From assembly GCA_007449985.2 (NCBI GenBank), contig VIIQ02000712.1, positions 151,536 to 215,535 on the forward strand: 64,000 bases of DNA, read 5' to 3'. Of the stretch, positions 1,687 to 64,000 are shown in pieces. A model generated the notes under the pieces. It made no database searches. It had not been told where the DNA came from and was given only the letters and a program-made list of their open reading frames with translations. How positions within the stretch are numbered: the stretch's first letter is position 1; each line of letters starts with the position of its first letter. A program made the position numbers and the translations under genes. Source of the stretch: Desmodesmus armatus. Taxonomy: Eukaryota > Chlorophyta > Chlorophyceae > Sphaeropleales > Scenedesmaceae.

Positions 1687-4600
1687 TTAGTCAGCCAAAT
1701 CCGCACTGCACAGGTAGGGCACCCTGTATCGCCGCTGCAGCCGCTCTGTTGCTGCGCTAGCTGCTGCTCGCTCCATAATGATCTGCCTGTCATCTTCCAA
1801 CTCTATCTGTATGAACTTTTCATCCCACGCGGGACTGCCGACTTCCAGATCACCCTCACTGCTGCCATCCATGCTGCTGCTGGCGCTGCTCGAGCCGTCG
1901 CTGCCGTTGCTGCTGCCGGTGACGCTGCTGTCTTGGTAGCCGCCGCTGCTGCTGCCATTGCTGCTGGGTGACGGCGCCTGCCCGCTGCTGCTGGCCTCTG
2001 CTGCTGCCGCTGCTTCTGTGATTTCAATGGCTGTGGGTTCTGCTGCTGGCTCTACTGCTGCTGCGGAGGGAGTGCGGCTGCCCTTGCCCATGATCAGCTG
2101 CTTCAGGTGTGCAAGGTTGAGAACGTCCACCCCATTCACCCGCAGCACCTGCGCACAACAGTAGCACAGCAAGGCATGCACCCATGCAGCTCAGCACTGT
2201 GTGGTGCTCCAACAGATGATCTCTGCTTTACTTGTGGCCCAACGATTACATCAAACCCTGAGGGTGGGATCCTGTGGTTTGGGCACATTGCCCAGGACAG
2301 CAAGTACGTTCTGCTTGTCATCCTGCTCTCAAAGGTAAGTACGCACTGGCTGGCAATGATGCAAGCTGCCATGACGCAACAGGGAGCCTGCTGCACTATC
2401 TGCAAGGCATCCAACAGCCCACACGCACCTGCAGTTTCTGGAACTGCTGGTAGCTTGTGTTGATGTTACCCATTACCACCTCAGGCAGTCAACTTCACAT
2501 CCCCAGTAGTCAAGCTTGTCGGACCAAACATTTCAGTCATCAGCAGCCATCCCACAACACCACACCTACCTGCAGGTTCTGGAACTGCTGGTAGCTTGTG
2601 TTGATGTCATCCACCAGGACCTGGCTCATGACAATGATCTGCTGGCCTGGCTTGTCCATGAGACCGTTGAGGGCCTTGTCCACCAACCGCCTGGGCGAGC
2701 TGGTGATCCAGTCATCTCCATACTCGTGCAGGTAAGGCTGACTCAAGGGCACAAACACCAGGCCTGCATTCAGCATAAACCCAGCATGCAAGACGGCATT
2801 ATGCGTCAGTTCGTGAACAGGACAACATGAGATGGTGATGACGTCGATTGGGGGTGACGGGGAGCTAGTGATCCAGTCATCCCCATATTCATGAAGGTAG
2901 GGCTGGCTCAGGGGCACAAACATAAGACCTGCACCACAAGACAAAGATGACCACGAAGTTTTGACTCAATGTGTCAACAGTGAGTGATGGGAGTAATAGG
3001 AGTGAGTGATGGGAGAGACGGGGAGTTGGTGATCCAGTCATCACCATACTCGTGAAGGTAGGGCTATCTCAGGGGCATAAGGTAGCATCGAGGCTCTTGG
3101 CCCAGGGAAATTTCATGAGCAGGTTATAAAGTTGCAGACTGCATTGCGCGCATCATGTGGTGGTGTGGGAGGCACGCGGTCAAGCAACAGCCAAACAGCC
3201 ACATGCGCACGGTGCAGTACAAATTGTACAACCCACAACCTAAATAAAACCAAAAAACCCACAAAAGTAACAGACGTGCTCACCTGCATAGATGAAGTAG
3301 CTGGGCAGCTGGTCGTACTTGTGCACGGGCACCAAAGTCTGGAGCGGCTGCAGCTCAATCTCATACTCCAACTCCTCCCTGTTGCGCAACACCTGCATGC
3401 CACAACCACACGACACGGCACAGCACACCACAGCACAGCACGTAAGGGCACGGCATGCAGCCAGCAGCATCAAAGCAAATACTGCAGAGAGGACTGCATG
3501 CTGAGAGCAGTGCTGCTGTGACACAGTGCACTTTGTTACAGGCGACCCAAACTGCCATAAGATTATATAAGAATAAGAAGCGCACCAGCCCTTGCGCAAA
3601 GCGACTGCACACGTACATCAACGTGTGGAGAACCCTACCTTGACGCGTGCAGTGCTGCCTGTGGGTTTGAGTGTAGTGAAGGCTGTGAAGAAGATGCGTT
3701 CACGAGCCCTGAACGGCACCGTGCCATCGTTTGCGATGGGGACACCGTCAAACTCCATCAGGACGTCACCCTTGCGCAGCACCTGTGGCGGCGGCGGGAG
3801 ACATGCACAAGCACACACTAGCCTGTCAACATTGCGACTGCATGACATGTACCCGATCGCTGCAACTCATGTGTTGAACATGCAGCATCAGTGTCAACAC
3901 ACATGGCACACTCTGTATCACCACACATGTGCAGCTGGGAACCTCTCCACAGGACACCAGCCTTGCGCAGCACCAAGGGCACTGATGCCTCTGATCAAAC
4001 TCAGTTCAAAGTCAAACTTGAAAACAGATTTTTAAATGTCAACTGCCAAGCGACTGCCACTTGACCAACGGTCATGCCGCCTTACTTTTGCAGTGCTGGT
4101 GGTGGGTTGGATCCTGTTGATCAGCACGCCTGTCTGGTGTGCCTTCATGCCCAGGGCCCTGCGTAGGTGTGTGTTGTCCATTGTCTGGAACACGATGCCT
4201 AGGGAGGTGAAGCCCCTGTAGCGGCCATACTTCAGCACCTCACTGGGCCACAGCACATAGCACAGCACGGCGCAGCACAACGACAACACAGCATGATCTT
4301 GTCAGCAGAAAATAAAGCAAACAAAACAAATACCGCATAAATGGGCTCGTCACATTGGACGTGGTGGCGAAGGCGTCATACATAGCATATCATGGGGTGC
4401 TGCCTGATGTCATCAACCTGCTAGCAAAGCCAGTGATGCAACACCGGCACAGCACGGCACAGCATAGCAGATCATCCCTCACCCCATGAAGCGCCTCACA
4501 ACAGGCAGTGGGATGATGTAACCAATGTTGTCAGCGTTGGGCACATTCTGGAAGGCCACACCAATCACCACATCATCTCGCAGGGCGGGTCCACCAGAGT

Positions 4601-50229: not shown

Positions 50230-50360
50230 GTTTTGCTGCGGTCACTGCCTCAGCAAGAACCTGGCAGGCCACGGTGGTGAAGGGTGCAGCAGGAGCATGC
50301 GGTTTTTACTACACCATGTTGATCGTGTAAAATGCACAAGGGATGTGCAGACCAGTGATG

Positions 50361-51015
50361 TCAGCCGCTCACAAAGTCTCATCCACCAAGTGCTGTCTCA
50401 CGGTTGCTGCACACACTGCACACAAAGTATTTGTTTGTTACTACTGTACTTATGTGGCAGCGCTCTGCGCCAGCTGCTGCTTCTGCCCAGACCTCATCGC
50501 CCCACCCTCGCATGTGTGAGTGTGACCCGGCTTTGTTTCAAAACTGGCGCATCTGCTGGAGCTGCGCTTGTCCCAGAGGGAACGCATCTATATGTTTTGT
50601 CGCTGTTGCTAGGCTGGGGCGCCCCTGGGGCACGCACTGCTGGGGTCGCATTTGAACTGTGCTGATCGTTGCAAGCTGGTCGCTGCTTCCCTCCCTTATC
50701 AAGATCACCTAGACGCAGCTATCTCCTTGGTCTGGAAGTACAAGCAGGGTGCAGCTGCAGGAGCGAGAAGTGCAACGGTACCATTGCCACCCCAGGCAGA
50801 TACCTACTGCTTCTGCTGTCAGGTACCCCCACCCCCAGTTTGACCCCCCCTGGGACCTACACCCCAGGAGCTGCTGCAGCTGTGCCCAGGTGTGCTTCGC
50901 TGGTGGCACTGCTCGCTAAGCTACAATATACATACAACTCATTTGCAAAAGCTTTGGGCTAGCAGCACTGAGACCTGAGCCTTCAGCTACTGCTGGATAA
51001 GACTTTCCTCCCAGC
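50361..51015. repeat. Segment found only in the long units
   Basis: Present here and at 61999-62646, absent from units 2 and 3. Both ends fall next to gcag/tgaaggtgat junctions. It contains a plus-strand stretch with clustered cysteines (YCFCCQ ... SCCSCAQ if a short gtaccc...cag intron is removed), but no stable reading frame between the two copies, so I do not call a gene. Confidence 0.6.
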
Positions 51016-51955
51016 TGAAGGTGATAATGCACTTCTTGGGCTCTTGCCCCTTTCCGCCCATTCCTGCATGCACTCATACAGCTGCTGGGGGGCGTGCTTT
51101 CTCACCGTCTGCTTGCTCCTGCTGTGGTGGGTCTACTTCCATGCAGGCTGTGCAAGCCTTGCACACAAGCTGCCGCTGCTGTAGCTGGCTCCTGCGCGAC
51201 GTAGGCGGCACATTACGCAGGTGAGGTTATATCAGTGTGTTTACAGCCTGAACACGCCGAAGTTATGCTGTGCTCCGCGTCGGAGGCTTGACAGATGGCA
51301 CGATGGAAATGGCCCCACTGCCAGTGCAGCTTACGTTGCACTTGATTACTGCCGTGAAGCACATGAAACGTCTCGGATATATGACTGTAATCAGTCTAGG
51401 CATTTGTTGGGTCGCTGCACGCACTCACCGTAAATGCACAGCAGTGGTGTTGCCAGCTTGTCAACTAGTTCAACTTTGCTGCAGCAACGTGCACGCCCAG
51501 CAGCTGTTTTCAGCACTATAGAGTACTGGAAATCTGTGTGTGCAAGGCTGCGGCAAACGATGCAGGTCTGTGTGGATTTGAGCTGTTGCCACGGTCACAA
51601 CATTGGACGGAGTAAACTGCTGCCACTTGCACTTATCTGCACGATCAGTGACGTTTTTAGATGTATCTTGCGACATTGAGCGCACTGCTGTTCCTTGCCT
51701 GTACCTGTGCTGCAATGTAGGTTTTGGCAGCAGTATTTGACTGTCCCAACAGAACTGCCAGGCAGCAGCAGCAACTCAACTGAGGCTGGCTGCCAGGCTG
51801 CAGACGCGAAGCACACGGTGAGAAGTATACTCTCAGCGAATGTCTGATGCCTGCAGTGCCAGCATGTGTATGCATGAATGCTCACAGCTGAAGGGCTGTA
51901 CAGGCAGTTGTTCAAGCAGTACGGCTGCGCTGCCAGCAACCAAGCAGCCACCCAA

Positions 51956-51960
51956 TTACA
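51956..51960 (-). terminator. Candidate UGUAA signal of the transposase, unit 1
   Basis: TTACA on the plus strand, so UGUAA about 250 nt downstream of the transposase stop at 52214-52212. Repeated in the other units. Confidence 0.35.
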
Positions 51961-52211
51961 TCAATCACCACAGCACCAGACACAAAACCACCCATGCATG
52001 CAGCAGCAGCAGTGGGCTCTGAACAAAAGGCCAGCAGCATGCAGCCCCATCAAGCATGACCAGTACATGGCCCGTACGAGTTACTGCCAAACGCGGGCAG
52101 CAGCGCTGTGCGCGCGGCTGCACCCACAGCAGCAGCAGGCCAAGTGCAGCACAGGCACAGCCAGCAGGTTACCAAACAGGCCAGCATGGCAGTACAGCAG
52201 AGCAAGTGGCA

Positions 52212-54738
52212 TCACCTGTAGTGTGCTGGGGGGTAGTCACCCTCACTACCAAGGTGGATGTCACCCTGATCATCGGTGTACTCCTCACCCCAGGGTGTGC
52301 TGATCACATGCCACAGCAAAGGCAGCCCCTCAACATCCCTTTTGACAGCACCAGCAACAAGCTCCTGCTCAAACACCTTCCTAACAACACTCTGCAACTC
52401 ATGCGCACCCGCTGCACTGGAGGTGTAGTGCTCATAGCGCTCATAGATGTGTGCACGAACCTTTGGCTTGGTGAACCCAAAGATGTGTTCAATGGGCCTG
52501 TTGATGTCAGGGCTGTAAGTAGGGATGTCCACCCTCTGCTTGATGGGGTCCAGCTTAATAACAGGCTCATCATCATACTCGAGGGTGCTGATTTCTGCAA
52601 TCTTCTGAATTTTGTTGTTGTCGTAGCACAGCACCGGGGCATCGGCCTTGTCACCCTTGCCATTGGTTAGGTTGTACTCCTTGGTCTTGCGCTCAAACTT
52701 TTGAACAATCTTGTACAGGTTGTCTGTAAACTCCTCACTTGTTGTGCTCTTTGCATCAATTGCTGTGCCTTTCTTCTGCAGGAGAGGCAAGAAGTGGCAC
52801 AGGCAGCATGCCGAAGGGGCGGTTAGATGCGTACAAGTTGGAGGCACTACAGGGCACAGCAAGCCTGAACAGAGGACTGGATCTTGATCAGCTGCATGTG
52901 CCAGTGCTGACCCTGGAGTGTGGTACCCCTGTCAACATCACCAACAGCAAGGGACTGCACAAGCTGTTCTGGAGGTGTAGCGGCTGTGACCCTGACAGGC
53001 AGCATTATCGGCTGTGCTCAGCTAAAACCCTGAAGTCACCAGAACACCTAGGCTGTCCCTTCTGCCCAGTGCGCCCACGTGAACAGCTGGTGTTACCTGC
53101 AAGCAGCAGAGTGTGCAGCAGTGAGGTCAGGTTCATGCAGCTGTTGTGGAAGTTTAGGCTGGATGCGGGGTACTGCCACCAGGTTGTGCCACCCTTTTGG
53201 GGGGCGCCTGTTGATTTCTACTGCTATGGGGCAGGCATCTGGGTTTTGGTTGATGACAGGCACCATTGGACTGGCATTCACCAGTACTCAAAAGGTGACA
53301 TAGCTGGCAATGATATGAGGCTGAACCTAGCAGCCATGAGGGCTGGCGAGGTGGTGGTGCGGGTGCATGCAGCAGACATGCAGAACCCTGGTTGTGTGCT
53401 GGCTGCCTTGTTTGCTGGCGCGGTTGCTGCCAGGTCTGGTGCTGCTGTGGTGCTGACACCCAGCTATGCTAGCTGTTTGATTGAGTGGCAAGGCAGCGTG
53501 AGGCCGTATGTGGCTGCACTGCTAAACCCCGGCGTGCCGGGGCAGCAGCGGCTGAGTCATGCAACTGCTGATGAAGGTATCTCTGTGGTCACACCCTTGT
53601 AACAGCACAGCAACACCACCCACCTGATAGTTGAAGTCGTCCACACGCGTACTGCCATCCATCCGCTTGTTGTGCTTCCGTTTGATATGGGAAGTACCAG
53701 TGGTGAATTCCATGTAGACAAGGCCGTTGGAGGACTCGAAGGCGGGGTGGGCGCTGACGGCAGCGATGATGTGGACTTTTGTGGGGTCACTCTTGTGTCC
53801 AACAGGGATAGGGCACACATCGCTGAAGTTCACCTCATGCTTGTCACACCACACAGCAACAGAGTCATGATTGCCACCCTGAAGCACAATGCTGGTCTCA
53901 TCAATAAAGACCATATTTTGCAGCAAGGAGGGCTCAACTGCAAGCCTCTCAATCAGCCCCTTAGCCCTAGTGACCCTCTCAGCCTTTTCCTCCTTGCTGA
54001 GTGCGCGCTTGAAGGTAATGCGCCTGCGCACCAGGTCTGGGTCGGCATCGTGCATTGCTGCCCTGAGCTGTGGTACAGTGATGTTGTGGTCGGCAAGGAT
54101 ACTCTGCAGCTCAGGAGTGTGGTCAACTGCGTCCTGAATCGATGTGAAGTACACCAGCCTGTGATGGGTAGCCTTCTTGACCTTGACTTCCACCCACCGC
54201 CCCTTCTTCACAAGCGCAGCAGCCCGCTTTGCCACATCAGGGTCTACCACCCTCGGCCGCCCAGACCTGTGCGCATCTTCGCAGGTGTGGTTGCCGCCCT
54301 TGACATGGTCAAACCAGTCCTGCATGAACCTTCTGGTACGGCTAATGTCACCGCAGTGTGGCAGGTTGTTAAAGGTCTGCTCCCATTCCTTCTTCTGCGT
54401 CTCGAAGGAGGCTGTTGCTTCCTGCCATCTTTCAGTCGAGGAGTGTGCTGTCACGCCGGCTGCTACCACAACACAAACTGCCAGCCACCTGACCCACATG
54501 GGTTTGTAGTGGGGCTCTTTGTGCTTTTCCACAGGATCTACCTCAATGGGGTCTGGAGGCAAGGAAAAGGCAGAATGACAGGGGCAGTTGCAGGCAAGCT
54601 TGTGTCACTGACACCTTCCAGTTGGTAACTGCTTTGACCACGTTTGACTTTCCGGACAGATGTCAGACCCGCAGTGTGAAGGTGATAATGCACTTCTTGG
54701 GCTCTTGCCCCTTTCCGCCCATTCCTGCATGCACTCAT
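52212..54738 (-). CDS. Tc1/mariner-like DDE transposase, unit 1
   Basis: Exons 54738-54615, 54552-53624 and 52775-52212 join in phase to 538 residues. A helix-turn-helix half includes RRFMQDWFDHVKGG and RSGRPRVVDPDVAKRAA. The catalytic residues are Asp259 (MVFIDETSIVLQGG), Asp403 (VLCYDNNKIQ) and Glu447 (PTYSPDINRPIEHIFGF), so D2 and E are 43 residues apart, longer than the 34 of Tc1. The protein would bind transposon ends and cut and paste DNA in the nucleus. An odd hydrophobic stretch (WLAVCVVVAAGVTA) precedes the HTH region. The ATG lies in unit 2, beyond the unit junction, so this frame depends on the tandem arrangement; a later start is possible. Intron 2 (848 bp) holds the antisense nuclease gene. 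Confidence 0.85.
52808..53602 (+). CDS. Zinc-ribbon PD-(D/E)XK (VSR/DUF559-like) nuclease nested antisense in the transposase intron, unit 1
   Basis: A 264-residue frame lying wholly inside transposase intron 2 on the opposite strand. Residues 55-86 form a four-cysteine zinc ribbon (WRCSGC ... GCPFC: Cys57, 60, 83, 86). Residues 104-190 follow the small restriction-like nuclease pattern: Glu106 in a helix (SSEVRFMQLLWKFRLDAGY), Asp136 (PVDFYCYG), an acidic strand then histidines (WVLVDDRHHW: Asp149, Asp150, His152, His153), Asp169 followed by a helix (NDMRLNLAAMRAG), and Arg185 (EVVVRVHAAD). DUF559, Vsr and the phage EDxHD homing endonucleases share this order; the assignment is by pattern only. 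The last ~70 residues have no recognised motif. The stop codon overlaps a TGTAA and lies 21 bp from the transposase donor. The ATG at 52808 is inside the intron; upstream codons are open through a CTGCAG acceptor, so an extra 5' exon is possible. Confidence 0.75.
   Translation: MPKGRLDAYKLEALQGTASLNRGLDLDQLHVPVLTLECGTPVNITNSKGLHKLFWRCSGCDPDRQHYRLCSAKTLKSPEHLGCPFCPVRPREQLVLPASSRVCSSEVRFMQLLWKFRLDAGYCHQVVPPFWGAPVDFYCYGAGIWVLVDDRHHWTGIHQYSKGDIAGNDMRLNLAAMRAGEVVVRVHAADMQNPGCVLAALFAGAVAARSGAAVVLTPSYASCLIEWQGSVRPYVAALLNPGVPGQQRLSHATADEGISVVTPL
53598..53602 (+). terminator. TGTAA overlapping the nuclease stop codon
   Basis: The final Leu-stop codons ttg taa contain tgtaa. If used, the 3' UTR would be very short and would end close to the transposase exon on the other strand. 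Confidence 0.35.
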
Positions 54739-57700
54739 ACAGCTGCTGGGGGGCGTGCTTTCTCACCGTCTGCTTGCTCCTGCTGTGGTGGGTCTACTTC
54801 CATGCAGGCTGTGCAAGCCTTGCACACAAGCTGCCGCTGCTGTAGCTGGCTCCTGCGCGACGTAGGCGGCACATTACGCAGGTGAGGTTATATCAGTGTG
54901 TTTACAGCCTGAACACGCCGAAGTTATGCTGTGCTCCGCGTCGGAGGCTTGACAGATGGCACGATGGAAATGGCCCCACTGCCAGTGCAGCTTACGTTGC
55001 ACTTGATTACTGCCGTGAAGCACATGAAACGTCTCGGATATATGACTGTAATCAGTCTAGGCATTTGTTGGGTCGCTGCACGCACTCACCGTAAATGCAC
55101 AGCAGTGGTGTTGCCAGCTTGTCAACTAGTTCAACTTTGCTGCAGCAACGTGCACGCCCAGCAGCTGTTTTCAGCACTATAGAGTACTGGAAATCTGTGT
55201 GTGCAAGGCTGCGGCAAACGATGCAGGTCTGTGTGGATTTGAGCTGTTGCCACGGTCACAACATTGGACGGAGTAAACTGCTGCCACTTGCACTTATCTG
55301 CACGATCAGTGACGTTTTTAGATGTATCTTGCGACATTGAGCGCACTGCTGTTCCTTGCCTGTACCTGTGCTGCAATGTAGGTTTTGGCAGCAGTATTTG
55401 ACTGTCCCAACAGAACTGCCAGGCAGCAGCAGCAACTCAACTGAGGCTGGCTGCCAGGCTGCAGACGCGAAGCACACGGTGAGAAGTATACTCTCAGCGA
55501 ATGTCTGATGCCTGCAGTGCCAGCATGTGTATGCATGAATGCTCACAGCTGAAGGGCTGTACAGGCAGTTGTTCAAGCAGTACGGCTGCGCTGCCAGCAA
55601 CCAAGCAGCCACCCAATTACATCAATCACCACAGCACCAGACACAAAACCACCCATGCATGCAGCAGCAGCAGTGGGCTCTGAACAAAAGGCCAGCAGCA
55701 TGCAGCCCCATCAAGCATGACCAGTACATGGCCCGTACGAGTTACTGCCAAACGCGGGCAGCAGCGCTGTGCGCGCGGCTGCACCCACAGCAGCAGCAGG
55801 CCAAGTGCAGCACAGGCACAGCCAGCAGGTTACCAAACAGGCCAGCATGGCAGTACAGCAGAGCAAGTGGCATCACCTGTAGTGTGCTGGGGGGTAGTCA
55901 CCCTCACTACCAAGGTGGATGTCACCCTGATCATCGGTGTACTCCTCACCCCAGGGTGTGCTGATCACATGCCACAGCAAAGGCAGCCCCTCAACATCCC
56001 TTTTGACAGCACCAGCAACAAGCTCCTGCTCAAACACCTTCCTAACAACACTCTGCAACTCATGCGCACCCGCTGCACTGGAGGTGTAGTGCTCATAGCG
56101 CTCATAGATGTGTGCACGAACCTTTGGCTTGGTGAACCCAAAGATGTGTTCAATGGGCCTGTTGATGTCAGGGCTGTAAGTAGGGATGTCCACCCTCTGC
56201 TTGATGGGGTCCAGCTTAATAACAGGCTCATCATCATACTCGAGGGTGCTGATTTCTGCAATCTTCTGAATTTTGTTGTTGTCGTAGCACAGCACCGGGG
56301 CATCGGCCTTGTCACCCTTGCCATTGGTTAGGTTGTACTCCTTGGTCTTGCGCTCAAACTTTTGAACAATCTTGTACAGGTTGTCTGTAAACTCCTCACT
56401 TGTTGTGCTCTTTGCATCAATTGCTGTGCCTTTCTTCTGCAGGAGAGGCAAGAAGTGGCACAGGCAGCATGCCGAAGGGGCGGTTAGATGCGTACAAGTT
56501 GGAGGCACTACAGGGCACAGCAAGCCTGAACAGAGGACTGGATCTTGATCAGCTGCATGTGCCAGTGCTGACCCTGGAGTGTGGTACCCCTGTCAACATC
56601 ACCAACAGCAAGGGACTGCACAAGCTGTTCTGGAGGTGTAGCGGCTGTGACCCTGACAGGCAGCATTATCGGCTGTGCTCAGCTAAAACCCTGAAGTCAC
56701 CAGAACACCTAGGCTGTCCCTTCTGCCCAGTGCGCCCACGTGAACAGCTGGTGTTACCTGCAAGCAGCAGAGTGTGCAGCAGTGAGGTCAGGTTCATGCA
56801 GCTGTTGTGGAAGTTTAGGCTGGATGCGGGGTACTGCCACCAGGTTGTGCCACCCTTTTGGGGGGCGCCTGTTGATTTCTACTGCTATGGGGCAGGCATC
56901 TGGGTTTTGGTTGATGACAGGCACCATTGGACTGGCATTCACCAGTACTCAAAAGGTGACATAGCTGGCAATGATATGAGGCTGAACCTAGCAGCCATGA
57001 GGGCTGGCGAGGTGGTGGTGCGGGTGCATGCAGCAGACATGCAGAACCCTGGTTGTGTGCTGGCTGCCTTGTTTGCTGGCGCGGTTGCTGCCAGGTCTGG
57101 TGCTGCTGTGGTGCTGACACCCAGCTATGCTAGCTGTTTGATTGAGTGGCAAGGCAGCGTGAGGCTGTATGTGGCTGCACTGCTAAACCCCGGCGTGCCG
57201 GGGCAGCAGCGGCTGAGTCATGCAACTGCTGATGAAGGTATCTCTGTGGTCACACCCTTGTAACAGCACAGCAACACCACCCACCTGATAGTTGAAGTCG
57301 TCCACACGCGTACTGCCATCCATCCGCTTGTTGTGCTTCCGTTTGATATGGGAAGTACCAGTGGTGAATTCCATGTAGACAAGGCCGTTGGAGGACTCGA
57401 AGGCGGGGTGGGCGCTGACGGCAGCGATGATGTGGACTTTTGTGGGGTCACTCTTGTGTCCAACAGGGATAGGGCACACATCGCTGAAGTTCACCTCATG
57501 CTTGTCACACCACACAGCAACAGAGTCATGATTGCCACCCTGAAGCACAATGCTGGTCTCATCAATAAAGACCATATTTTGCAGCAAGGAGGGCTCAACT
57601 GCAAGCCTCTCAATCAGCCCCTTAGCCCTAGTGACCCTCTCAGCCTTTTCCTCCTTGCTGAGTGCGCGCTTGAAGGTAATGCGCCTGCGCACCAGGTCTG

Positions 57701-58335
57701 GGTCGGCATCGTGCATTGCTGCCCTGAGCTGTGGTACAGTGATGTTGTGGTCGGCAAGGATACTCTGCAGCTCAGGAGTGTGGTCAACTGCGTCCTGAAT
57801 CGATGTGAAGTACACCAGCCTGTGATGGGTAGCCTTCTTGACCTTGACTTCCACCCACCGCCCCTTCTTCACAAGCGCAGCAGCCCGCTTTGCCACATCA
57901 GGGTCTACCACCCTCGGCCGCCCAGACCTGTGCGCATCTTCGCAGGTGTGGTTGCCGCCCTTGACATGGTCAAACCAGTCCTGCATGAACCTTCTGGTAC
58001 GGCTAATGTCACCGCAGTGTGGCAGGTTGTTAAAGGTCTGCTCCCATTCCTTCTTCTGCGTCTCGAAGGAGGCTGTTGCTTCCTGCCATCTTTCAGTCGA
58101 GGAGTGTGCTGTCACGCCGGCTGCTACCACAACACAAACTGCCAGCCACCTGACCCACATGGGTTTGTAGTGGGGCTCTTTGTGCTTTTCCACAGGATCT
58201 ACCTCAATGGGGTCTGGAGGCAAGGAAAAGGCAGAATGACAGGGGCAGTTGCAGGCAAGCTTGTGTCACTGACACCTTCCAGTTGGTAACTGCTTTGACC
58301 ACGTTTGACTTTCCGGACAGATGTCAGACCCGCAG
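54675..58335. mobile_element. Tandem element unit 2, short form (3661 bp)
   Basis: Starts at the junction gacccgcag then tgtgaaggtgataatg. It matches unit 1 from 51016 on at a constant offset of 3661 bp; the one substitution I saw is C at 53505 against T at 57166, changing Pro to Leu in the nuclease. Confidence 0.9.
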
Positions 58336-58399
58336 TGTGAAGGTGATAATGCACTTCTTGGGCTCTTGCCCCTTTCCGCCCATTCCTGCATGCACTCAT
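55873..58399 (-). CDS. Tc1/mariner-like DDE transposase, unit 2
   Basis: Exons 58399-58276, 58213-57285 and 56436-55873. It encodes the same 538-residue protein as unit 1, with the same DDE residues, the same splice sites and an intact frame. Its ATG again lies across the junction in the next unit. Its second intron holds nuclease copy 2. Confidence 0.85.
56469..57263 (+). CDS. Intron-nested antisense nuclease, unit 2
   Basis: 264 residues, differing from copy 1 by one Pro-to-Leu change near the C-terminus (VRPYVAAL to VRLYVAAL). Zinc-ribbon cysteines and all putative catalytic residues are unchanged. Confidence 0.75.
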   Translation: MPKGRLDAYKLEALQGTASLNRGLDLDQLHVPVLTLECGTPVNITNSKGLHKLFWRCSGCDPDRQHYRLCSAKTLKSPEHLGCPFCPVRPREQLVLPASSRVCSSEVRFMQLLWKFRLDAGYCHQVVPPFWGAPVDFYCYGAGIWVLVDDRHHWTGIHQYSKGDIAGNDMRLNLAAMRAGEVVVRVHAADMQNPGCVLAALFAGAVAARSGAAVVLTPSYASCLIEWQGSVRLYVAALLNPGVPGQQRLSHATADEGISVVTPL

Positions 58400-61300
58400 A
58401 CAGCTGCTGGGGGGCGTGCTTTCTCACCGTCTGCTTGCTCCTGCTGTGGTGGGTCTACTTCCATGCAGGCTGTGCAAGCCTTGCACACAAGCTGCCGCTG
58501 CTGTAGCTGGCTCCTGCGCGACGTAGGCGGCACATTACGCAGGTGAGGTTATATCAGTGTGTTTACAGCCTGAACACGCCGAAGTTATGCTGTGCTCCGC
58601 GTCGGAGGCTTGACAGATGGCACGATGGAAATGGCCCCACTGCCAGTGCAGCTTACGTTGCACTTGATTACTGCCGTGAAGCACATGAAACGTCTCGGAT
58701 ATATGACTGTAATCAGTCTAGGCATTTGTTGGGTCGCTGCACGCACTCACCGTAAATGCACAGCAGTGGTGTTGCCAGCTTGTCAACTAGTTCAACTTTG
58801 CTGCAGCAACGTGCACGCCCAGCAGCTGTTTTCAGCACTATAGAGTACTGGAAATCTGTGTGTGCAAGGCTGCGGCAAACGATGCAGGTCTGTGTGGATT
58901 TGAGCTGTTGCCACGGTCACAACATTGGACGGAGTAAACTGCTGCCACTTGCACTTATCTGCACGATCAGTGACGTTTTTAGATGTATCTTGCGACATTG
59001 AGCGCACTGCTGTTCCTTGCCTGTACCTGTGCTGCAATGTAGGTTTTGGCAGCAGTATTTGACTGTCCCAACAGAACTGCCAGGCAGCAGCAGCAACTCA
59101 ACTGAGGCTGGCTGCCAGGCTGCAGACGCGAAGCACACGGTGAGAAGTATACTCTCAGCGAATGTCTGATGCCTGCAGTGCCAGCATGTGTATGCATGAA
59201 TGCTCACAGCTGAAGGGCTGTACAGGCAGTTGTTCAAGCAGTACGGCTGCGCTGCCAGCAACCAAGCAGCCACCCAATTACATCAATCACCACAGCACCA
59301 GACACAAAACCACCCATGCATGCAGCAGCAGCAGTGGGCTCTGAACAAAAGGCCAGCAGCATGCAGCCCCATCAAGCATGACCAGTACATGGCCCGTACG
59401 AGTTACTGCCAAACGCGGGCAGCAGCGCTGTGCGCGCGGCTGCACCCACAGCAGCAGCAGGCCAAGTGCAGCACAGGCACAGCCAGCAGGTTACCAAACA
59501 GGCCAGCATGGCAGTACAGCAGAGCAAGTGGCATCACCTGTAGTGTGCTGGGGGGTAGTCACCCTCACTACCAAGGTGGATGTCACCCTGATCATCGGTG
59601 TACTCCTCACCCCAGGGTGTGCTGATCACATGCCACAGCAAAGGCAGCCCCTCAACATCCCTTTTGACAGCACCAGCAACAAGCTCCTGCTCAAACACCT
59701 TCCTAACAACACTCTGCAACTCATGCGCACCCGCTGCACTGGAGGTGTAGTGCTCATAGCGCTCATAGATGTGTGCACGAACCTTTGGCTTGGTGAACCC
59801 AAAGATGTGTTCAATGGGCCTGTTGATGTCAGGGCTGTAAGTAGGGATGTCCACCCTCTGCTTGATGGGGTCCAGCTTAATAACAGGCTCATCATCATAC
59901 TCGAGGGTGCTGATTTCTGCAATCTTCTGAATTTTGTTGTTGTCGTAGCACAGCACCGGGGCATCGGCCTTGTCACCCTTGCCATTGGTTAGGTTGTACT
60001 CCTTGGTCTTGCGCTCAAACTTTTGAACAATCTTGTACAGGTTGTCTGTAAACTCCTCACTTGTTGTGCTCTTTGCATCAATTGCTGTGCCTTTCTTCTG
60101 CAGGAGAGGCAAGAAGTGGCACAGGCAGCATGCCGAAGGGGCGGTTAGATGCGTACAAGTTGGAGGCACTACAGGGCACAGCAAGCCTGAACAGAGGACT
60201 GGATCTTGATCAGCTGCATGTGCCAGTGCTGACCCTGGAGTGTGGTACCCCTGTCAACATCACCAACAGCAAGGGACTGCACAAGCTGTTCTGGAGGTGT
60301 AGCGGCTGTGACCCTGACAGGCAGCATTATCGGCTGTGCTCAGCTAAAACCCTGAAGTCACCAGAACACCTAGGCTGTCCCTTCTGCCCAGTGCGCCCAC
60401 GTGAACAGCTGGTGTTACCTGCAAGCAGCAGAGTGTGCAGCAGGTGAGGTCAGGTTCATGCAGCTGTTGTGGAAGTTTAGGCTGGATGCGGGGTACTGCC
60501 ACCAGGTTGTGCCACCCTTTTGGGGGGCGCCTGTTGATTTCTACTGCTATGGGGCAGGCATCTGGGTTTTGGTTGATGACAGGCACCATTGGACTGGCAT
60601 TCACCAGTACTCAAAAGGTGACATAGCTGGCAATGATATGAGGCTGAACCTAGCAGCCATGAGGGCTGGCGAGGTGGTGGTGCGGGTGCATGCAGCAGAC
60701 ATGCAGAACCCTGGTTGTGTGCTGGCTGCCTTGTTTGCTGGCGCGGTTGCTGCGCCAGGTCTGGTGCTGCTGTGGTGCTGACACCCAGCTATGCTAGCTG
60801 TTTGATTGAGTGGCAAGGCAGCGTGAGGGTATGTGGCTGCACTGCTAAACCCGGCGTGCCGGGGCAGCAGCGGCTGAGTCATGCAACTGCTGATGAAGGT
60901 ATCTCTGTGGTCACACCCTTGTAACAGCACAGCAACACCACCCACCTGATAGTTGTAGTCGTCCACACGCGTACTGCCATCCATCCGCTGTTGTGCTTCC
61001 GTTTGATATGGGAAGTACCAGTGGTGAATTCCATGTAGACAAGCCGTGGAGGACTCGAAGGCGGGTGGGCGCTGACGGCAGCGATGATGTGGACTTTTGT
61101 GGGGTCACTCTTGTGTCCAACAGGGATAGGGCACACATCGCTGAAGTTCACCTCATGCTTGTCACACCACACAGCAACAGAGTCATGATTGCCACCCTGA
61201 AGCACAATGCTGGTCTCATCAATAAAGACCATATTTTGCAGCAAGGAGGGCTCAACTGCAAGCCTCTCAATCAGCCCCTTAGCCTAGTGACCCTCTCAGC

Positions 61301-61998
61301 CTTTTCTCCTTGCTGAGTGCGCGCTTGAAGGTAATGCGCGCTGATGCCTGCGCACCAGGTCTGGGCGCGTCGGCATTGCATTGCTGCCTGAGCTGTGGTA
61401 CAGTGATGTTGTGGTCGGCAAGGATACTCTGCAGCTCAGGAGTGTGGTCAACTGCGTCCTGAATCGATGTGAAGTACACCAGCCTGTGATGGGTAGCCTT
61501 CTTGACCTTGACTTCCACCCACCGCCCCTTCTTCACAAGCGCAGCAGCCCGCTTTGCCACATCAGGGTCTACCACCCTCGGCCGCCCAGACCTGTGCGCA
61601 TCTTCGCAGGTGTGGTTGCCGCCCTTGACATGGTCAAACCAGTCCTGCATGAACCTTCTGGTACGGCTAATGTCACCGCAGTGTGGCAGGTTGTTAAAGG
61701 TCTGCTCCCATTCCTTCTTCTGCGTCTCGAAGGAGGCTGTTGCTTCCTGCCATCTTTCAGTCGAGGAGTGTGCTGTCACGCCGGCTGCTACCACAACACA
61801 AACTGCCAGCCACCTGACCCACATGGGTTTGTAGTGGGGCTCTTTGTGCTTTTCCACAGGATCTACCTCAATGGGGTCTGGAGGCAAGGAAAGGCAGAAT
61901 GACAGGGGCAGTTGCAGGCAAGCTTGTGTCACTGACACCTTCCAGTTGGTAACTGCTTTGACCACGTTTGACTTTCCGGACAGATGTCAGACCCGCAG
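58336..61998. mobile_element. Tandem element unit 3, short form, second half damaged
   Basis: Same junction and content as unit 2. No difference noticed up to about 60442; beyond that many small indels appear. Confidence 0.85.
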
Positions 61999-62020
61999 TC
62001 AGCCGCTCACAAAGTCTCAT
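59534..62020 (-). pseudogene. Transposase, unit 3, frameshifted
   Basis: The last exon (60097-59534) is intact, but the long middle exon (about 61876-60946) has several indels between 60,946 and 61,390. The HTH half, 61876 to about 61,390, is still open. The first exon here meets a long unit and could start at an ATG at 62020 (MRLCERLTAGLTSVRK). The damage may be real or a consensus error. Confidence 0.7.
60130..60924 (+). pseudogene. Intron-nested antisense nuclease, unit 3, frameshifted
   Basis: Intact through the zinc ribbon, then an extra G near 60443 ends the frame at SSRVCSR. Further indels follow near 60753, 60828 and 60850. Downstream nuclease motifs are still readable in shifted frames. 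Confidence 0.75.
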
Positions 62021-64000
62021 CCACCAAGTGCTGTCTCACGGTTGCTGCACACACTGCACACAAAGTATTTGTTTGTTACTACTGTACTTATGTGGCAGCG
62101 CTCTGCGCCAGCTGCTGCTTCTGCCCAGACCTCATCGCCCCACCTCGCATGTGTGAGTGTGACCAGGCTTTGTTTCAAAACTGGCGCATCTGCTGGAGCT
62201 GCGCTTGTCCCAGAGGGAACGCATCTATATGTTTGTCGCTGTTGCTAGGCTGGGGCGCCCCTGGGGCACGCACTGCTGGGGTCGCATTTGAACTGTGCTG
62301 ATCGTTGCAAGCTGGTCGCTGCTTCCCTCCCTTATCAAGATCACCTAGACGCAGCTATCTCCTTGGTCTGGAAGTACAAGCAGGGTGCAGCTGCAGGCGA
62401 GAAGTGCAACGGCACCATTGCCACCCCAGGCAGATACCTACTGCTTCTGCTGTCAGTACCCCCACCCCCAGTTTGACCCCCCCTGGGACCTACACCCCAG
62501 GAGCTGCTGCAGCTGTGCCCAGGTGTGCTCGCTGGTGGCACTGCTCGCTAAGCTACAATATACATACAACTCATTTGCAAAAGCTTTGGGCTAGCAGCAC
62601 TGAGACCTGAGCTTCAGCTACTGCTGGATAAGACTTTCCTCCCAGCTGAAGGTGATAATGCACTCTTGGGCTCTGCCCCTTTCCGCCCATTCTGCATGCA
62701 CTCATACAGCTGCTGGGGGGGCGTGCTTTCTCACGTCTGCTTGCTCCTGCTGTGTGGGTCTACTTCATGCAGGTGTGCAAGCCTTGCACACAAGCTGCGC
62801 TGCTGTAGCTGCTCCTGCGCGACGTAGGCGGCACATTACGCAGGTGAGGTTATATCAGTGTGTTTACAGCCTGAAACACGCGAGTTATGCTGCTGCTCCG
62901 CGTCGGAGGCTTGACAGATGGCACGATGGAAATGGCCCCACTGCCAGTGCAGCTTACGTTGCACTTGATTACTGCCGTGAAGCACATGAAACGTCTCGGA
63001 TATATGACTGTAATCAGTCTAGGCATTTGTTGGGTCGCTGCACGCACTCACCGTAAATGCACAGCAGTGGTGTTGCCAGCTTGTCAACTAGTTCAACTTG
63101 CTGCAGCAACGTGCACGCCCAGCAGCTGTTTTCAGCACTATAGAGTACTGGAAATCTGTGTGTGCAAGGCTGCGGCAAACGATGCAGGTCTGTGTGGATT
63201 TAGCTGTTGCCACGGTCACAACATTGGACGGAGTAAACTGCTGCCACTTGCACTTATCTGCACGATCAGTGACGTTTTTAGATGTATCTTGCGACATTGA
63301 GCGCACTGCTGTTCCTTGCCTGTACCTGTGCTGCAATGTAGGTTTTGCAGCAGTATTGACTGTCCAACAGAACTGCCAGGCAGCAGCAGCAACTCAACTG
63401 AGGCTGGCTGCCAGGCTGCAGACGCGAAGCACACGGGAGAAGTATACTCTCAGCGAATGTCTGATGCCTGCAGTGCCAGCATGTGTATGCATGAATGCTC
63501 ACAGCTGAAGGGCTGTACAGGCAGTTGTTCAAGCAGTACGGCTGCGCTGCCAGCAACCAAGCAGCCACCCAATTACATCATCACCACAGCACCAGACACA
63601 AAACCACCCATGCATGCAGCAGCAGCAGTGGGTCTGAAAAAAAGGCCAGCAGCATGCAGCCCCATCAAGCATGACAGTACATGGCCCGTACGAGTTACTG
63701 CCAAACGCGGGCAGCAGCGCTGTGCGCGCGGCTGCACCCACAGCAGCAGCAGGCCAAGTGCAGCACAGGCACAGCCAGCAGGTTACCAAACAGGCCAGCA
63801 TGGCAGTACAGCAGAGCAAGTGGCATCACTGTAGTGTGCTGGGGGGTAGTCACCCTCACTACCAAGGTGGATGTCACCCTGATCATCGGTGTACTCTCAC
63901 CCCAGGGTGTGCTGATCACATGCCACAGCAAAGGCAGCCCCTCAACATCCCTTTGACAGCACCAGCAACAAGCTCCTGCTCAAACACCTTCCTAACAACA
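61999..64000. mobile_element. Tandem element unit 4, full-length form, truncated by window end
   Basis: Again contains the 5' segment of unit 1, joined to gacccgcag. Numerous single-base losses relative to unit 1 (for example in the homologue of 51016-51220). Confidence 0.85.
63826..64000 (-). pseudogene. Transposase 3' end, unit 4, partial and frameshifted
   Basis: Matches the end of the last transposase exon, with single-base losses at about 63830, 63896 and 63953. It continues beyond the window. Confidence 0.65.

Follow-up and report, generated by a model that had tools for sequence, protein, structure and literature searches.

In the bacterial transposon Tn7, the PD-(D/E)XK nuclease TnsA works together with the DDE protein TnsB, both being encoded by separate genes, and nucleases of the TnsA type carry a C-terminal domain which binds the partner. 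Homing-type nucleases are described from other settings. I-Bth0305I, an EDxHD enzyme, is described as a homing endonuclease that derives from a phage and belongs with those of group I introns (PMC3943268). For eukaryotic elements, a 2017 review mentions 'at least two' homing-type nucleases, GIY-YIG and PD-(D/E)XK, VSR/EDxHD not being named in the available part of its text (PMC5718144). Spliceosomal homing introns of mirusviruses, so-called shintrons, were published in 2025, and the VSR-like ones represent one of four types (16 of 334; PMC12768974). The present analysis deals with a transposase gene of the green alga Desmodesmus armatus, the intron of which carries a predicted VSR-like nuclease gene on the opposite strand. 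It was found in a stretch of 64,000 nucleotides, hereafter the window (assembly GCA_007449985.2, contig VIIQ02000712.1, positions 151,536 to 215,535 of the forward strand).

The transposase gene lies on the minus strand of the window. Exon A (53624..54604) is a stop-to-stop frame with a helix-turn-helix (HTH) region and the first catalytic D (FIDET), while exon B (52212..52775) contains the second D (CYDNN) and the catalytic E (RPIEH). Both are separated by a GT-AG intron of 848 bp in phase 0 (52776..53623), which is nearly all taken up by the nuclease gene on the plus strand (52808..53602, 264 codons). In the joined exons, the DDE triad was assigned by its motif to D235, D379 and E423, with a spacing of 43 residues between the last two, and it is whole only when exons A and B are joined. 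Since the intron separates the first D from the second, splicing would be needed to obtain a whole catalytic core. This intron with its antisense frame had been proposed in a first-pass annotation, and both the coordinates and the GT-AG borders could be read directly. The coding start of exon A was placed upstream of HYKPMW, and the acceptor of an earlier transposase intron is probably located near 54558. The extension of the first exon out to 54738, as initially annotated, is not established because it crosses a junction between two repeated units at 54676/54677. The reading as a self-splicing intron was dropped, as an Rfam search over 50300-55100 gave no match at E ≤1. Near the N-terminus of the transposase, a hydrophobic signal-like stretch (as in HYKPMWARWLAVFVCVSVGVTA) is conserved in many relatives, which is odd for a nuclear enzyme.

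Exon A, exon B and the nuclease served as queries against the genome of 115.8 Mb, and all counts given here are lower bounds among the matches listed. Three distantly related element families were identified, all of them ordered as exon A, antisense nuclease and exon B, so that the proposed layout is kept in each. In the family of the window (F1), the nuclease is 96-100% identical in rows without stop which cover most of the query. Undamaged rows of the second family (F2) display 34-35% identity to the window for the nuclease, 40-41% for exon A and 52-55% for exon B, the corresponding values for the third (F3) being 34-36%, 43% and 37-39%. An antisense nuclease match was found between the exons in 102 of the 103 exon A/exon B pairs, and a sense-strand match in none; the single pair with no listed nuclease match has the same gap of 825 bases. 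The gap between the exons measures 800-1000 bases in 99 of the 103 pairs. As most rows are near-identical array copies, only the three families and their separate arrays count as independent, and not the 103 pairs.

Matches with no listed partner within 400 bases amounted to 17 of 181 for the nuclease (no exon), 7 of 123 for exon A and 7 of 150 for exon B (no nuclease). These are likely to be fragments, contig ends or unlisted rows, although some may represent a nuclease without transposase. Some copies carry stops or indels. No intronless copy was detected among the matches listed in the genome, nor among the 22 database relatives reaching the exon boundary. Arrays with a unit of 2502 bp were observed at G000:C193:30049-53231 (also at C166:4154 and C748:4218), in which exon A is present and the nuclease frame is open, with no exon B among the matches listed.

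The intron borders GTGGGT...CTGCAG are kept in all 26 F1 copies checked; incomplete or damaged copies, among them the third in the window, did not enter this set. The intron measures 848 bp in 13 of them and 847 bp in the other 13. In the types aligned (region 52730-52940), the shorter introns show a gap of 1 bp at nuclease base 4, 43, 45 or 129. Several of these copies are still open over 298 codons, being joined to an upstream frame that reaches antisense exon B, and two database relatives (P0040 and P0041) read through from antisense exon B in the same manner. The start of the nuclease gene, as given here, is provisional.

The protein database delivered 27 relatives of exon A and 34 of the nuclease (12 in one search and 33 in another, 11 being common to both); their contigs range in length from about 0.9 to 13.5 kb. 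The alignments were built from the window and 23 of the 27 exon A relatives, and from the window and 23 of the 34 nuclease relatives. The end of the exon was reached in frame by 22 of the 27 (21 by pattern, P0038 by eye), the five others (P0024, P0027, P0029, P0032 and P0037) being omitted from the donor count. The consensus of the splice donor is GT(G)(A/C/G)G. Directly after the end of exon A, all 22 relatives read V followed by G, S or R, which is the reading of that donor. Ten relatives have a tail longer than 25 residues, and eight of these tails correspond to the window's nuclease read in antisense, at E <1e-10 (searched in the three antisense frames only); the match of P0026 is weak (0.007) and P0035 has none. 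Among the eight, one of which is nearly identical to the window's own sequence, the identity of exon A and that of the antisense tail are correlated (Spearman 0.79, p 0.02; the two tails with no match left out). In P0054, the nuclease of which is 34% identical, antisense exon B precedes the nuclease and matches the plus-strand frame of the window's exon B at E 1e-20. As database relatives show both the donor codon and the antisense nuclease, the nested arrangement is not peculiar to a single genome. The contig of P0060 (1098 bases) shows the end of exon A followed by the nuclease in the same sense; this is either a chimera or a different arrangement, an assembly chimera being the probable explanation.

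The nuclease was analysed both as a frame and as a predicted structure. The longest open run on the plus strand of the intron has 274 codons, compared with 105 on average in a set of 2000 first-order Markov sequences of the intron, of which one reached 265. A chance open frame was rejected on the basis of this comparison together with the conservation of the active site and the co-occurrence with the exon pairs. The product combines a zinc-ribbon-like N-terminal part with a VSR/EDxHD-like core (E106, D136, D149, H153, D169 and R185); we take the order of these residues to be that of the VSR/EDxHD motif, a correspondence of motif order only and not a residue-by-residue match to 3r3p. In the aligned set, which spans 30-80% identity to the window's nuclease, the active site is strongly kept: E106 was found in 23 of 23 sequences, D136, D149, H153 and D169 in 24 of 24, and R185 in 23 of 24. 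The AlphaFold2 model, calculated from 24 aligned sequences, has a pLDDT of 88.6 and predicts a core with the VSR/I-Bth0305I (EDxHD) fold. Both the model, which the first-pass annotation had called for, and the unvarying E, D, D, H and D thus agree with the nuclease type that it had suggested. The CxxC...CxxC ribbon stood in part: the second Cys is present in 20 of 20 aligned sequences, the first in 12 of 20 and C70 in 14 of 21.

A PDB sequence search with the nuclease gave nothing significant, with one match at E 1.8. Pfam analysis of the 24 members indicated no clear family: DUF4873 was matched in seven (best 0.011), Zn_ribbon_recom in three, the DUF4379 treble clef in two (0.08) and Rpp14 in one (0.0039). 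No prokaryotic or viral sequence relative of the nuclease was confirmed in viral_contigs or genome_contigs, a weak negative as few peptide patterns were scanned (one each in two scans), and no viral relative of the transposase in viral_contigs, again with few peptide patterns. By structure, Foldseek comparison with BFVD revealed giant-virus proteins annotated as 'restriction endonuclease' and treble-clef zinc finger proteins, with matches that span a large part of the model (best E 2.2e-5, probability 1.00). There were 15 matches at E ≤0.001, one of them annotated as treble clef, with low TM scores of 0.26-0.35 by query length and a large rmsd.

The assignment of the transposase to the IS630/Tc1/mariner group is supported by the relatives, in line with the Tc1/mariner-like label initially given. 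NCBIfam NF033545 (transpos_IS630) was matched by 12 of the 24 sequences aligned for exon A, that of the window not being among the 12 (best 1.9e-7, matches standing on E values and not on a curated cut-off), and HTH_32 by 18 of the 24 (best 4.6e-5). The exon A profile matched the mariner-derived SETMAR chain at 9.8e-6 over the DNA-binding part and at 0.056 where the catalytic domain begins. The window's own exons match such family models weakly or not at all: a Pfam search of the joined exons gave no DDE or transposase family, and the exon B frame alone reached DDE_3 at 0.035, below cut-off.

The gene pair is part of a tandem array, which the first-pass annotation had barely touched on. Copy 1 of the internal unit (51016..54676) measures 3661 bp. 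Copy 2 (54677..58337) is 99.97% identical to it and contains a second intact nuclease frame at 56469-57263 on the plus strand. In copy 3 (58338..61999, 99.2% to copy 1), the nuclease and exon A frames are broken by indels; these are numerous and perhaps reflect a poor consensus near the contig end. A terminal repeat of about 655 bp (50362..51015) forms the left edge of the array, with unique DNA to its left. The same repeat (62000..62646) is located between copy 3 and a fourth unit, of which only the start is present (62647..64000), the window and the contig both ending there. Units are thus arranged head to tail, with or without the 655-bp repeat in between, the junction being GCAGT|G|TGAAGG where it is absent. 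Array edges coincide with this repeat, on the left in the window and on the right at C530, C581, C336 and C682, and C530 is a single unit flanked by one repeat on each side. All 21 own-genome matches of the repeat are on contigs carrying F1. Two unit spacings were also deduced from match coordinates in F2 (about 3552 and 4229-4252) and F3 (3615 and 4288), and an optional stretch of about 675 bp therefore seems common to the families. The repeat may be excised or lost separately from the units.

By eye, the two ends of the 655-bp repeat resemble an imperfect inversion, a pair which is not among the 25 longest of 163. No TA pair is seen at the array edges read in the window and at C530, C581, C336 and C682; C581 was the only insertion read at both of its edges, and its left repeat is truncated. 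No empty insertion site was found, the left flank being detected only at C680 and C681, both filled. At these two places (G000:C680:201377-202575 and C681:2655-3852) the left flank and the array edge are 100% identical, and they are therefore probably two versions of one locus.

Taken as a whole, the locus is best read as a two-gene mariner/IS630 DNA transposon with an intron of shintron-like origin, the nuclease of which still acts on the DNA of the element; this reading is adopted tentatively, at somewhat less than an even chance. Transposase genes that lacked the intron would have been cleaved by the nuclease at the conserved junction of exons A and B, and their repair would have copied the spliceosomal homing intron into them, before the three families split. 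Such an origin accounts for the presence of the intron, for the nuclease fold and for a position in a conserved part of the gene. Between families, the nuclease shows a little less similarity than the transposase exons; it has therefore probably resided with the transposase since before this split instead of hopping among the families. At present, it may cut copies without the intron, whether this was lost or never gained, or further sites of the unit. Recombinational repair involving neighbouring units would then copy them, helping to make and keep the head-to-tail arrays. Together with the identities of the three units in the window, the values of 98.1-99.9% for other arrays plainly point to recent amplification. 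In its stronger form, in which homing intron and transposon have fused into one long-lived mobile element and the EDxHD nuclease is kept as a working second enzyme, cutting the DNA of the element and driving amplification and homogenisation of the arrays, the proposal is possible but rather doubtful. A homing origin alone leaves the conservation of the nuclease unexplained, no intronless copy having been seen among the matches listed. Because the nuclease is conserved in spite of this and has probably long been co-resident, continued use, either on the element's own DNA in array growth or in transposition, is likely. Homogenisation within arrays is not clearly indicated, since other arrays are nearly as alike as the units of one array, which tells somewhat against the favoured reading.

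Use in transposition is the main rival to an action on the element's own DNA. The nuclease would assist the DDE transposase when the element is excised or a target is chosen, in the way that TnsA works with TnsB, and its nesting in the intron would keep both genes together. It is an unlikely explanation, though one to be taken seriously: the co-occurrence in 102 of 103 exon pairs among the matches listed, the co-divergence of exon A and antisense tail in the eight relatives, the lack of intronless copies among the matches listed and an active site kept down to about 30% identity all speak for it. Against it, mariner transposases elsewhere are not known to need a second nuclease, and the 2502-bp units at C193 keep exon A and the nuclease with no exon B among the matches listed. 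A Tn7-like reading in the strict sense was set aside, as no TnsA was among the fold matches listed, a missing match being in itself no evidence of difference.

The nuclease intron could also be a selfish passenger riding in the transposon, which benefits only itself, or formerly did so and is now decaying. Parasitism had been one of three roles suggested in the first-pass annotation, besides cutting of the empty donor and protection of the array, and all three stay candidates. A phage homing endonuclease is among the fold relatives, stops or indels occur in some copies, and the similarity between arrays fits this view too. The dN/dS of the nuclease among recent copies is near 1 (0.94-1.26), whereas the first-pass annotation had named a value near 1 across families as a sign against its proposal; the figure for recent copies stands on 4-9 changes, too few to inform, and the active site is strongly kept over larger distances. 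As active site and open frames are preserved in three families, and the one exon pair of 103 with no listed nuclease match has the same 825-base gap, a mere passenger is improbable. That exons A and B are what is left of a broken gene, or that the antisense frame is due to chance, is most improbable: the gene model was drawn from sequence and not from transcripts, the third copy in the window is frameshifted and the joined exons have no DDE match in Pfam, but open frames in three families, the donor codon in 22 of 22 relatives, a triad whole only after joining and the confidently predicted fold all contradict it.

If the favoured reading is true, the very recent concept of spliceosomal homing introns extends beyond giant viruses to a cell's nuclear genome and to transposons, and a VSR/EDxHD nuclease is to be added to those of eukaryotic DNA transposons. 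As the genome offers many copies, tests could tell homing, partnership in transposition and the growth of arrays apart.

Several known systems share parts of this organisation. With Tn7, the locus has in common a PD-(D/E)XK-type nuclease and a DDE protein in one transposon. The elements described in PMC3627910 likewise combine a mariner transposase with a second nuclease, but in separate adjoining genes, with nuclease types named as GIY-YIG and EcoRII-like and the word 'intron' absent from the available text. The nuclease differs from I-Bth0305I and the repair endonuclease VSR by its additional zinc-ribbon-like N-terminal part and a sequence identity of 15-17%, being so far a protein of sequence and model; the giant-virus proteins matched in BFVD are mostly larger. 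The closest likeness is with the shintrons, which also carry a nuclease gene in a GT-AG intron with no group I or II signature, the nuclease being here of homing type by predicted fold. Most of them reside in genes for virion morphogenesis, and the available text does not state on which strand the nested genes lie (PMC12768974). The initial statement that no case with a spliceosomal intron and opposite strands was known does not hold as to the spliceosomal intron in view of these shintrons, VSR-like ones included, and categorical novelty cannot be claimed. As far as found in the open-licence literature, what is new here is the nuclear DNA transposon as host, with the nuclease gene on the opposite strand of its transposase, at one conserved site through three families and in tandem arrays, a putative long-lived antisense variant of the shintron.
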